Assembly (NCBI RefSeq): GCF_023660105.1
Contig: NZ_JAMHGA010000043.1
Location: 1 to 64,000 of the forward strand
Direction: 5' to 3'
Origin: Desulfovibrio aminophilus
GTDB taxonomy: Bacteria; Desulfobacterota; Desulfovibrionia; Desulfovibrionales; Desulfovibrionaceae
DNA length: 64,000 nt
The position numbers and the translations under genes are program-made. Below are positions 49,531 to 54,384 of the stretch, one piece after another (position 1 is the stretch's first letter; every line of letters starts with the position of its first letter). The notes beneath the pieces are model-generated. The model was not told where the DNA came from and made no database searches. It saw only the letters and a list, made by a program, of their open reading frames with translations.

Positions 49531-50388
49531 TCAGCCCAGGTTCAGCATGGGCTCGATGATGGTCCGCATGGCCTTGCCCGTGGGCGTGTCGCCGTGGACC
49601 TTCATGAAGGGATAGCCCTCGTCGCCGGAGCGCACGACCTCGGCGTCCAGCGGGATGCGGCCCAGGAAGCGCACGCCCATCTCGCCGGCCAGGGCCTCGC
49701 CGCCGCCCTTGGTGAAGATGTCGTGGGTCTGGCCGCAGCCGGGGCAGACGAAGCCGCTCATGTTCTCCACGATGCCGAAGACCTCGTTGCCCACCTGGCG
49801 CACGAAGGACACCGAGCGCCGCACGTCGTCCACGGCCACGCCCTGCGGCGTGGTCACGACCACGGCCTTGGCGTCCTGGCCCAGGAGCTGGAGGGTGGAC
49901 AGGGGCTCGTCGCCGGTGCCGGGAGGGCAGTCCACCACGAGGTAGTCCAGGTCGCCCCAGGCCACGTCCTGGATGAACTGGCGGATGAGGCCCATCTTCA
50001 CCGGACCGCGCCAGATCACGGCCTGCTCCTTGTCCGGGAGCATGAAGCCCAGGGACATGACCGAGAGGGTCTTGCTCCAGGGCAGGGGCTCGATGACCTC
50101 CTCGCCGAAGTGCGGCTTCTGGCCGCCCATGGCCAGCAGGCGCGGGACGCTGGGGCCGTGCACGTCCACGTCCAGCAGGCCGACCTTCTTCCCGGCCAGG
50201 GAGAGGGCCACGGCGATGTTGGCCGCCACGGTGCTCTTGCCCACGCCGCCCTTGCCGGACATGACCACGAACTTGTGCTTGATGCGGGACAGGACCTTCT
50301 TGAGCTTCACGTCCTCGGGCTTCTGGCCGCAGGAATCGGGCGAACAGCCCGAGCCGGCCGAGGGACAGCTCTTGCAGGAATCGCTCAT
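49531..50388 (-). CDS. Mrp/NBP35-family Fe-S carrier ATPase
   Basis: A 285-residue P-loop ATPase for Fe-S cluster delivery. Deviant Walker A GKGGVGKSTVAANIA, DVDVHGPSVPRLL, CPPGTGDEP and the C-terminal cluster cysteines CPGC (FVCPGCGQ) are present. Unlike short ApbC proteins, it begins with a cysteine-rich segment (C5, C8, C14, C19 in the first 20 residues), reminiscent of the N-terminal [4Fe-4S] site of Nbp35. The ATG at 50388 follows AAGGAG; further upstream in-frame sequence is not conserved-looking. Confidence 0.92.
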   Translation of the reverse strand: MSDSCKSCPSAGSGCSPDSCGQKPEDVKLKKVLSRIKHKFVVMSGKGGVGKSTVAANIAVALSLAGKKVGLLDVDVHGPSVPRLLAMGGQKPHFGEEVIEPLPWSKTLSVMSLGFMLPDKEQAVIWRGPVKMGLIRQFIQDVAWGDLDYLVVDCPPGTGDEPLSTLQLLGQDAKAVVVTTPQGVAVDDVRRSVSFVRQVGNEVFGIVENMSGFVCPGCGQTHDIFTKGGGEALAGEMGVRFLGRIPLDAEVVRSGDEGYPFMKVHGDTPTGKAMRTIIEPMLNLG

Positions 50389-50404
50389 GTGGTGCTCCTT
50401 GAAA

Positions 50405-50434
50405 AGAAATGGGCCGGTGTGACCGGCCCTTTCT
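50405..50434 (-). terminator. Terminator of the DUF47-pit operon
   Basis: Reading leftward, agaaa-gggccgg and ccggccc-a-tttct (50405-50434) pair with a 5-nt loop and one bulge, followed by TTTT. It lies between pit and mrp. Confidence 0.75.
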
Positions 50435-50456
50435 GATAACGCCTTGTGGCGAAATG

Positions 50457-51485
50457 TCAAATTCCCGGGGCCGCCACGGCGGTGAGGCCGAGCAGGCCGA
50501 GCACTTCGAAGATGAGCCAGGCCATGATGGCCGAGCAGGGCAGGGTCAGGATCCAGGCCACGACCATGTTTCCGGCGATGCCCCAGCGCACGGCCGAGAG
50601 GCGCTTGGACGAGCCCACGCCGAGCACGGCGGTGGAGATGGTGTGGGTCGTGCTGATGGGCGCGCCGATGAGCGAGGCACCGGTGATGACCATGGCCGCC
50701 GAGGTTTCGGCAGCGAAGCCGTGCACGGCCTCCAGCTTGAATATCTTGTGGCCCATGGTCTTGACGATCTTCCAGCCGCCCATTGCCGTGCCCATGGCCA
50801 TGGCCATGGCGCAGGCCAGCTTGACCCAGAACGGCACGGTCAGGTCGGGAATCTCGTGGCCCACGAACAGGGCCAGGGTGATGATGCCCATGGTCTTCTG
50901 GGCGTCGTTCATGCCGTGGCTGGTGGCCATCAGGGCAGAGGAGGCGATCTGGAGCCTTCGGAAGGAGTGGTTCACCCCTCGCGGGGTGGCGTTGTGGAAG
51001 GCCCAGGAGAGCCCGAGCATGAGCGCGTACCCGGCCAGGAAGCCCGCCAGGGGCGAGAGCACGAGGGGCAGGAGGATTTTTTCGATGATGGACAGGTAGT
51101 GCAGGGTGCCGAAGCCCCGGTAGGCCACGGCCGCGCCCATGAGCCCGCCGATGAGGGCGTGGGAGGACGAGGAGGGCAGGCCCAGGTACCAGGTGAGCAG
51201 GTTCCAGAGGATGGCCCCGCCCAGGGCTGCCAAGGTCAGGGCCTGGCAGCCCCGGACCATGTCCGGGTGCACGATGCCCGAGCCGATGGTGTGGGCCACC
51301 TTGGTGCCGATGAAGGCTCCGGCCAGGTTGAGCGCGGCGGCCATGAACACCGCGGTCCTCGGCGAGAGAACCTTGGTGGAGACGATGGTGGCGATGGCGT
51401 TGGCCGAGTCGTGCGCGCCGTTGGTGAAGTCGAAGACCAGGGCCACGATCACGACGCCGATGAGCAGAACGAGAGGATCAGGCAT
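50457..51485 (-). CDS. pit: PiT-family inorganic phosphate transporter
   Basis: A 342-residue inner-membrane permease with about ten hydrophobic helices. Both PiT signatures are present: FDFTNGAHDSANAIATIVST near the N-terminus and the second copy SHGMNDAQKTMGI plus GASLIGAPISTTHT. It moves phosphate (as metal-phosphate) with protons or sodium. The start overlaps the DUF47 gene by 8 bp; that pairing is standard for PiT transporters. Confidence 0.95.
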   Translation of the reverse strand: MPDPLVLLIGVVIVALVFDFTNGAHDSANAIATIVSTKVLSPRTAVFMAAALNLAGAFIGTKVAHTIGSGIVHPDMVRGCQALTLAALGGAILWNLLTWYLGLPSSSSHALIGGLMGAAVAYRGFGTLHYLSIIEKILLPLVLSPLAGFLAGYALMLGLSWAFHNATPRGVNHSFRRLQIASSALMATSHGMNDAQKTMGIITLALFVGHEIPDLTVPFWVKLACAMAMAMGTAMGGWKIVKTMGHKIFKLEAVHGFAAETSAAMVITGASLIGAPISTTHTISTAVLGVGSSKRLSAVRWGIAGNMVVAWILTLPCSAIMAWLIFEVLGLLGLTAVAAPGI

Positions 51486-52374: not shown

Positions 52375-53031
52375 TCAGGCGCGCTTGGCGGCCCGGGCCT
52401 CGCGCAGCCAGCCGTACCACTGCTCCAGGCCCTCGCCGTTCTTGCAGGACACGGGCAGGACGAGGATCTCGGAGTTCAGCTTGCGGGCGTGGGCCGAGGC
52501 CCGTTCCAGATCGAAGTCCACGTAGGGCAGCAGGTCGGTCTTGTTCAGGAGCATGACCGAGGAGATGTGGAACATGAGCGGGTATTTCTCGGGCTTGTCG
52601 TCGCCCTCGGTGACGGAGAGGAGCGAAATCTTGTGGTCCTCGCCCAGATTGAACTCGGCCGGGCAGACCAGGTTGCCCACGTTCTCGACGAAGAGGATGT
52701 CCAGGCCCTCGGTGTCGATGCTTTTCAGGGCGTCCAGGACCATGCCGGAATCGAGGTGGCAGCCGCCTTCGGTGTTGACCTGCACGGCCTGGGCCCCGGT
52801 GGCGGCCACGCGGCGGGCGTCGTTGTCGGTCTGGAGGTCGCCCTCGATGACGGCCATGCGGAACTCGCCCTTGAGGTCGGAGAGCGTCCGCTCCAGGAGC
52901 GTGGTCTTGCCCGCGCCCGGGGAGCTCATGAGGTTCAGGCAGAGGATGCCCTTGGCCTTGAAGATTCCGGCCAGGGTCTCGGCCAGGCGGTCGTTGGCCT
53001 CCAGCACGTTGCGCACGACGGGGATTTCCAT
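52375..53031 (-). CDS. hypB: Hydrogenase nickel incorporation GTPase HypB
   Basis: A 218-residue SIMIBI GTPase that loads nickel into [NiFe] hydrogenases. Walker A SSPGAGKTT, EGDLQTDNDARRV, the metal-binding NTEGGCHLD, and ENVGNLVCPAEFNLGE are characteristic. There is no N-terminal histidine-rich store, so nickel storage is not built in. It lies 15 bp after hypA and presumably acts with HypA and hydrogenases encoded elsewhere. Confidence 0.96.
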   Translation of the reverse strand: MEIPVVRNVLEANDRLAETLAGIFKAKGILCLNLMSSPGAGKTTLLERTLSDLKGEFRMAVIEGDLQTDNDARRVAATGAQAVQVNTEGGCHLDSGMVLDALKSIDTEGLDILFVENVGNLVCPAEFNLGEDHKISLLSVTEGDDKPEKYPLMFHISSVMLLNKTDLLPYVDFDLERASAHARKLNSEILVLPVSCKNGEGLEQWYGWLREARAAKRA

Positions 53032-53046: not shown

Positions 53047-53394
53047 CTAGTCGGCCTCGATGGATTCGATGAGCAGCTCTTTTCCGGCCAGGACCTCGTG
53101 GCCCAGGAATTCGCCGCATTGGGGGCAGGGCATGTAGTGCCGGTCCTCGGGCTCGAATTCGGCCTTGCAGGAGCCGCAGCGCACGCGCAGCGGCACCTCC
53201 TCGACGAGCAGCTCCGCGCCCTCCAGCTCCGATCCCGGGGTCAGGGCCTCCCAGGCGAAGGTCAGGGCCTCGGTGACGGCCCCGGCCAGGGCGCCGTTGC
53301 GCAGCCGCACCCGGCTGACCTTGCCCAGGCCGTGCCGGTCGCGTTCCTCGAGGATGATGGTCATCATGCTCTGCACCAGGGATAGTTCATGCAT
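53047..53394 (-). CDS. hypA: Hydrogenase maturation nickel metallochaperone HypA
   Basis: A 115-residue nickel chaperone. The N-terminal MHEL provides the nickel site at H2, and the zinc ribbon uses CGSC and CPQC. Length and spacing are normal. GAGGG... precedes the ATG weakly. First gene of the hypAB operon, which ends in a strong terminator. Confidence 0.95.
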   Translation of the reverse strand: MHELSLVQSMMTIILEERDRHGLGKVSRVRLRNGALAGAVTEALTFAWEALTPGSELEGAELLVEEVPLRVRCGSCKAEFEPEDRHYMPCPQCGEFLGHEVLAGKELLIESIEAD

Positions 53395-53496: not shown

Positions 53497-53838
53497 TCAG
53501 CCGCCGCAGGAACTGCCGCTGCTGCCGCAGCCGCCGCAGGTTCCCGAGGAGGAGCAGGACCCGCCGCCTTCCAGCGGATTGTCCGACTCCACGGAGAAGC
53601 CGTAGGGGGTCATGTCCACGCGGATGGCGCCGGTCTGGGCCAGGAGGGCCTTGTCCACCAGGAAGGTGAACCCTCCGGCGGCGAAGCTCTCGTCGTTCTC
53701 GCGCGGGTCGTCCAGGGCCAGGGCTAGGCGCGGGCCGGAGCAGCAGCCGCCTCCGGCGTAGACCCGGACAGGGCTCGCGGTCTTGTCGGAGAAGTAGTCT
53801 TCCAACTGCTTCTTCGCGGCATCGGAAAGTTCGACCAT
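53497..53838 (-). CDS. HesB/IscA-like protein, cysteine form
   Basis: A 113-residue member of the HesB/IscA-type fold. Residues 1-95 contain VRVYAGGGCCSGPRLALALDDP (adjacent C32-C33) and FTFLVDKALLAQTG. The usual IscA C-terminal CGC is absent; instead the protein ends in a Gly/Ser/Cys-rich tail with five cysteines. It is a paralogue of the next gene, where C33 is replaced by an in-frame UGA. GAGGATATCC lies before the ATG at 53838. The role is likely metal, sulfur or redox related; no partner is adjacent. Confidence 0.85.
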   Translation of the reverse strand: MVELSDAAKKQLEDYFSDKTASPVRVYAGGGCCSGPRLALALDDPRENDESFAAGGFTFLVDKALLAQTGAIRVDMTPYGFSVESDNPLEGGGSCSSSGTCGGCGSSGSSCGG

Positions 53839-53892: not shown

Positions 53893-53930
53893 AAAAATCC
53901 GGGGCGGCACCCTTTCGGACGCCGCCCCGG
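53893..53930 (-). terminator. Terminator after the UGA-containing HesB-like gene
   Basis: Perfect 10-bp arms ccggggcggc (53899-53908) and gccgccccgg (53921-53930), followed leftward by ATTTTT. It shows that the upstream reading frame is its own transcription unit. Confidence 0.88.
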
Positions 53931-53947: not shown

Positions 53948-54295
53948 TCAGCAGGAGCAGGATCCGCCCGTGCCGCAGGACCCGCCCGTGCTGCAGGAGC
54001 CGGAGGAGCAACCGCCGCCTCCGCCTCCGACGGGTTTCTCGGAGCTGACCGAGAACCCGTAATAGGTCATGTCGATGCGGATGGTTCCGGTCTGGGTCAG
54101 GAGATCCTTTTCGACCAGGAAGGTGAATCCGCCCTCATTGAACGTCTCGTCGTCGTGATGCGGCTCGTCCAGAGCCAGCGAGAGCCTCGGCCCCGCTCAA
54201 CCACCCGTGGACAGGTAGACCCTGACCGGGGTGACTTCCTTGTCCGCGAAGTAGCCCTGGAGCTGCTTCTGGGCGGACGGGGTCAGTTCGATCAT
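53948..54295 (-). CDS. HesB-like selenoprotein (in-frame UGA read as selenocysteine)
   Basis: A 115-residue product if UGA at 54197-54199 is decoded as Sec33. It begins MIELTPSAQKQL and aligns throughout with the downstream cysteine paralogue: VRVYLSTGG-U-AGPRLSLALDEP against VRVYAGGGC-C-SGPRLALALDDP. Sequence after the UGA is fully conserved (GGFTFLVEKDLL, TYYGFSV) and ends in a Gly/Ser/Cys tail, so this is not decay. HesB-like proteins are a known bacterial selenoprotein family. AAGGAGG precedes the ATG at good spacing, and a terminator follows. Sec machinery is not in this window. Confidence 0.82.
54162..54176 (-). promoter_or_regulatory. Candidate bacterial SECIS hairpin
   Basis: In the mRNA, GGCUC-UGGAC-GAGCC forms a 5-bp stem (a G-U pair can extend it) with a loop that has G at its second position, starting 26 nt after the UGA. 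That spacing and loop are within what is described for bacterial SECIS elements. The corresponding region of the cysteine paralogue cannot form the hairpin. Confidence 0.55.
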
Positions 54296-54384
54296 GCGTT
54301 CCTCCTTGCGCTCGGCGCGGCAAACACAGGTAAGACTGGAGTGCATTTTTGTCAAACAGGAAGTTGCCCGCCGAGCCCGGTCTG

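Follow-up and report, generated by a model that had tools for sequence, protein, structure and literature searches.

The window analysed here, a stretch of 64,000 nucleotides from Desulfovibrio aminophilus, contains a gene of the IscA/HesB family whose frame runs through an in-frame UGA (Table 1). Its coding strand, which the initial annotation had left unstated, is the minus strand (54295 to 53948). The frame extends from an ATG at 54295-54293 to a final TGA at 53950-53948 and is interrupted solely by the TGA at 54199-54197, which is codon 33. The frame of 116 codons broken by a single TGA thus had correct coordinates, and corresponds to 115 residues plus the stop. The good ribosome-binding site reported along with it is likewise present, as AAGGAGG upstream of the ATG, and in agreement with the reported terminator the stop is followed by a GC-rich, terminator-like hairpin of 14 pairs (53930-53899) and then five T (fold z -2.98), a type of site of which the pattern scan by itself would be expected to find 0.7 by chance. 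Further downstream lies a tandem Cys paralogue, directly followed on its 3' side by a hypA-like gene and hypB. The UGA falls, as had been claimed, at the second cysteine of this paralogue, which reads C32-C33-S-G-P where the interrupted gene reads G-U33-A-G-P. Divergently upstream are genes for a TetR-type regulator and for PyrR (232.8 bits against 138). Elsewhere in the window (49531-50460), a gene for an MrpORP/ApbC-like Fe-S carrier scores 383.8 bits, compared with a MrpORP cut-off of 450.

Table 1. Coordinates of the features of the locus, listed in the direction of the minus strand.
Feature	Position	Strand	Evidence
Ribosome-binding site AAGGAGGAACGC ahead of the ATG	54296..54307	-	Sequence
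Selenoprotein gene of the IscA/HesB family, 115 residues, predicted Sec33, stop TGA	53948..54295	-	NF038090 114 bits, PF01521 33 bits, relatives
In-frame UGA (codon 33), taken by comparison to encode selenocysteine	54197..54199	-	Same column in 79/79 Sec copies extracted
Bacterial SECIS-type hairpin	54161..54177	-	Stem 54177-54172 with 54166-54161, loop UGGAC 54171-54167
Intrinsic-terminator-like hairpin 3' of the selenoprotein gene	53899..53930	-	14 pairs, fold score
Tandem Cys paralogue (Cys33 for Sec33), Cys-rich tail	53497..53838	-	NF038090 109.3 bits
hypA-like nickel chaperone, downstream neighbour	53047..53394	-	PF01155 105.8 bits; TIGR00100 86.1 against a cut-off of 88.1
hypB, downstream neighbour	52375..53031	-	TIGR00073 274 bits against a cut-off of 121.2

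When translated through the UGA, the protein matches the full length of the curated model NF038090 (IscA_HesB_Se; profile positions 1-101 of 101) well above its cut-off of 85 bits, and exceeds that of PF01521 (Fe-S_biosyn, 26.3 bits), just below which the Cys paralogue remains with 25.7 bits. Both copies of the window are above the NF038090 cut-off, and we found no difference from this family, which takes in Sec and Cys forms alike; all 35 members of A3 match it at E values up to 0.001. The protein also carries, as U33-A-G-P, the UxGP motif that Table 1 of PMC13188914 assigns to HesB-like selenoproteins. In contrast, it matches only weakly TIGR01911 (HesB_rel_seleno), the model to which PMC13188914 and PMC9312934 refer for HesB-like selenoproteins, with 28.9 bits against a cut-off of 66.35. 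The label of HesB-like selenoprotein proposed in the initial annotation is therefore right in a broad sense only: it is borne out by NF038090 and by the motif, and fails on the TIGR01911 model.

The predicted structure of the selenoprotein (mean pLDDT 80, with residues 92-115 of the tail under 50) matches crystal structures of the A-type Fe-S carriers IscA and SufA (1x0g, 2d2a, 1r94, 1s98) at E values from 3.7e-6 to 2.9e-5, and IscA-type chains were likewise recovered when PDB sequences were searched with a profile. Sec33 is aligned, in the comparison with 1nwb, to the loop that holds the first conserved cysteine of IscA-type proteins. The fold and the placement of this residue are thus shared with IscA and SufA, whereas the window protein differs from them by a selenocysteine in place of the cysteine, by a Gly/Ser/Cys-rich tail (with three to five tail cysteines in 78/78 Sec copies above 100 bits), and by scores far under the equivalog cut-offs of IscA (25.1 against 150.6), SufA (20.5 against 136.2) and ErpA (20.1 against 117).

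At the 70% G+C of the window, a stop should occur about every 52 codons, and simple arithmetic from this composition indicates that 82 codons would stay open past a TGA by chance in about 1 case in 5. The open frame is consequently weak evidence by itself, and the case rests on comparison. Indeed, such a chance continuation would agree with a TGA that is a real stop, the gene being then a recent pseudogene or encoding a peptide of 32 residues, with the intact Cys paralogue next door doing the work.

Comparison with relatives argues against a real stop. NF038090 has matches in 138 of 149 related genomes (the window's own included), and 121 of the 149 have one in-frame TGA within a family match of at least 70 bits, a tally that combines the search of the 149 genomes with a repeat on 62 of them and in which the Sec column is confirmed for the extracted copies. 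Matches with a single in-frame TGA are spread across the order. From 80 fetched loci and the window we extracted 128 copies, 79 of which carry U, all at one and the same column; since the loci were mostly picked for a TGA copy, 79/128 is not to be read as a frequency. Cysteine occupies this column in 41 of the 49 Sec-free copies, and the motif is absent from the other eight. A scan of named genomes gave 47 loci, from which 72 copies were extracted, 24 of them with U; 43 of the titles refer to Desulfovibrio and its kin (for instance Desulfovibrio piger or Pseudodesulfovibrio pelocollis), and the remaining four name only Deltaproteobacteria or Proteobacteria.

Substitutions are as constrained after the UGA as before it. 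Relative to the nearest congener (L050), pN/pS values are 0.042/0.375 upstream of the UGA and 0.028/0.242 downstream of it, and relative to a second one (L051) they are 0.166/0.596 and 0.150/0.414. Purifying selection therefore acts on both sides of the UGA, in agreement with the equal conservation noted by the initial annotation, which had also named truncation in sister strains beforehand as a sign against a selenoprotein: both congeners keep the UGA and the frame downstream of it.

All four components of the selenocysteine machinery, whose absence had been set in advance as another such sign, are present in the same genome. These are selA (599 bits against an NCBIfam cut-off of 267.9), selB (365.3 bits together with neighbours in the frame, against 242.25), selD (312.2 bits, which passes the NCBIfam cut-off) and a tRNA-Sec gene, selC (79.5 bits against an Rfam gathering score of 47), with the anticodon loop CUUCAAA. 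The selD gene (C7:71583-72500, minus strand, locus L048) has its own in-frame UGA within G-U-AAK, and the SelD of D. aminophilus is on this sequence probably itself a selenoprotein.

A TGA-bearing match of at least 70 bits occurs in 112 of the 124 genomes with a selA match (among which one match is a fragment, in G139, and one is broken, in G129) and in nine of the 25 without. The other 12 selA genomes have no family match (six), only stop-free matches (four), or a TGA only in sub-cut-off matches (two, G003 and G028). Five of the 25 genomes without selA have no family match, and a weaker TGA-bearing match in one more (G029, 44.6 bits) was left out of the count. Family matches that are diverged and fall short of the cut-off, several of them with an in-frame TGA, were observed in G003 (nine), G014, G028, G029 and G054, and may represent a further branch of the family.

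The nine genomes that bear the TGA and have no selA match (G014, G024, G054, G099, G103, G107, G126, G135 and G141) could suggest that the UGA is read through by other means, such as a near-cognate tRNA, reassignment to tryptophan or insertion of cysteine. However, these genomes are 67-94% complete, so that a loss of selA and an assembly gap are indistinguishable in them. Among eight selA-less genomes with a completeness of 90% or more and a contamination of 5% or less, one has a TGA-bearing match (G099, 94%). Of five selA-less genomes with a completeness of 95% or more, none does. Moreover, TGA also serves members of this family as a normal final stop codon (28/79 Sec copies and 19/49 Sec-free copies), which makes reassignment unlikely, and both the predominance of cysteine at the position in Sec-free copies and the presence of selA, selB, selC and selD speak against such a decoding, which we regard as scarcely probable. 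Reading of the terminal TGA of the window gene as a second selenocysteine ('CSCU') was also considered and rejected, as the 79 Sec copies end with TAA (29), TGA (28) or TAG (22); it is further opposed by the terminator-like hairpin just past the stop.

Bacterial SECIS elements consist of a hairpin just 3' of the UGA, the loop of which has a G within its first two positions. The window gene conforms to this rule with a UGGAY loop that starts 25 nt past the UGA, on a stem of six pairs whose outermost is U-G. The UGGAY loop is common to the Sec copies, with the exception of a UGGAA in one of the 79. The five inner pairs, from the loop outwards, form in 79, 79, 79, 78 and 79 of the 79 Sec copies, as compared with 36, 5, 17, 17 and 26 of the 41 Cys copies, and the outermost of the six is found in only 61 of the 79 Sec copies. 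An alanine codon of the stem is GCT in 78/79 Sec copies and in 6/41 Cys copies, the amino acid being unchanged. Both the aligned stem and the GCT comparison were picked after inspection of the sequences, and the Fisher p of these comparisons is no true probability because the positions are post hoc and the copies related.

The stem also displays compensatory changes. At pair 24-38, 59 Sec copies have G-C and 19 have U-A, and pair 27-35, which forms in only 5/41 Cys copies, is U-A in 78 Sec copies and C-G in one (L102), where the change is accompanied by a replacement of Glu by Gly. The covariation of the six-pair structure over 78 distinct rows is 0.203, against 0.095 in shuffled alignments (0/500 as high), and drops when the pairing partners are slid. 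Two pairs change on both sides, a number reached in 8/500 shuffles, and the number of further pair types is not raised over the shuffles (362/500 as high). This covarying hairpin is a modest new point for the HesB-like group. The kept stem and its compensatory changes stand, together with the single UGA column and the constraint downstream of it, against a real stop at codon 33, which we consider very improbable in spite of the intact neighbouring paralogue.

Our SECIS model (R1) gives 60.2 bits at the window gene and 35 bits at the Cys paralogue. A third match of R1 in the same genome (C7:80199-80241, 25.8 bits) was rejected, since no TGA stands where it begins and the reading frames at that place resemble those of other genes; seven lower matches, of which two were examined, reach at most 15.3 bits. 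Two results speak against the hairpin: a free search for bSECIS-like hairpins did not discriminate between Sec copies (55/79) and Cys copies (27/41), and the window hairpin alone is not unusually stable (24/200 shuffles as stable). Rfam at gathering score has no match in the window. A match to RAGATH-25 (18.8 bits against 49), found between 54050 and 54300 when E values up to 5 were allowed, was taken as chance.

Taken together, these comparisons of sequences indicate that the UGA at codon 33 is very probably decoded as selenocysteine. SelB and Sec-tRNA-Sec would perform this decoding, directed by the hairpin, whose stem begins about 20 nt downstream.

The tandem arrangement seen in the window recurs among relatives. 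A Cys copy lies within 700 nt and on the same strand at 38 of 78 Sec loci, with the Sec copy first at 29 and the Cys copy first at nine, a count that requires the Cys motif and becomes 42/78 if degenerate copies are included. The other 40 loci lack a Cys copy within this distance, four of them having a degenerate copy only. Degenerate copies without Cys or Sec (for example PRGSRGP or FMSESGP) adjoin intact Sec copies in L072, L073 and L076, and in L062, L066 and L069. The presence of a neighbouring Cys copy at 38 of the 78 Sec loci is also a modest new point. We found no mention of paired Sec and Cys copies of this family in the consulted parts of the literature on HesB-like selenoproteins.

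A tree of 120 core sequences requires 21 changes between Sec and Sec-free states, at least four of which are forced by supported branches, and a single origin of the Cys copies was accordingly rejected. This tree is based on 84 columns and has no inferred root, hence the direction of change is not given. The Cys copies and the changes of state point to repeated duplication with replacement.

One possible, though rather doubtful, account of these pairs is that they are selenium-dependent alternates, the Cys copy being made when selenium is short, which would be compatible with decoding of the UGA as selenocysteine. The proximity and shared orientation of the two copies at 38 of the 78 loci would agree with such a role, as would the switch between Sec and Cys isoforms with selenium supply, via the regulator HrsM, reported for Methanococcus maripaludis in PMC11097638. 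On the other hand, a simple sigma-70 scan found no regulatory element or promoter-like site, and the 40 Sec loci that have no Cys copy that near, four of them with only a degenerate one, do not follow the pattern.

Within the fetched flanks, which span about 2-3 kb and are in some cases cut by contig ends, hypA and hypB are both found, apart from the window, at only six of 80 loci (L050, L063, L078, L081, L082 and L087). A conserved link with hypA/hypB was therefore rejected, and a connection with hydrogenase is only a weak lead. A pyrR homologue is present at 45 of the 80 fetched loci.

In A-type carriers, iron or an Fe-S cluster is bound by three cysteines, among them the first conserved one. 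A selenolate would replace this first cysteine in the window protein, and Sec33 and the tail cysteines would probably bind a cargo to be delivered, whether iron, another soft metal or an Fe-S cluster; alternatively, the site might act as a redox switch. From the fold and the placement of the cysteines, we give roughly even chances to a role of the Sec protein as a metal or Fe-S carrier. The adjoining Cys copy would probably do the same job without selenium, or serve as a partner of the Sec copy.

The selenoprotein family was known before. In 2006, Desulfovibrio vulgaris and D. desulfuricans were already listed with HesB-like selenoproteins (PMC1794560, Table 3), and a HesB family with TGA, including D. 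vulgaris DVU_1382, appears in PMC1914089 (2007). Going by these descriptions, the Desulfovibrio proteins have in common with the window gene their HesB family and an in-frame TGA. According to PMC11097638, a HesB-like selenoprotein was recognised in M. maripaludis through mutagenesis together with 75Se labelling, and its function was called not clear; an unpublished observation is quoted there that a Methanococcus mutant disrupted in the hesB-like gene is unimpaired in nitrogen fixation.

These results confirm a gene that is likely to be cut short or overlooked by a standard gene caller, and they provide the HesB-like selenoprotein group with a clear SECIS signature that includes compensatory changes. 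As a speculative and rather improbable extension, Desulfovibrio-type bacteria might keep neighbouring Sec and Cys copies, with repeatedly changed identity, as a metal carrier that responds to selenium or is of mixed Sec/Cys composition, and that perhaps supplies the assembly of nickel- or Fe-S-dependent hydrogenases. The adjoining Sec and Cys copies represent a natural test of the contribution of selenium to an A-type carrier.
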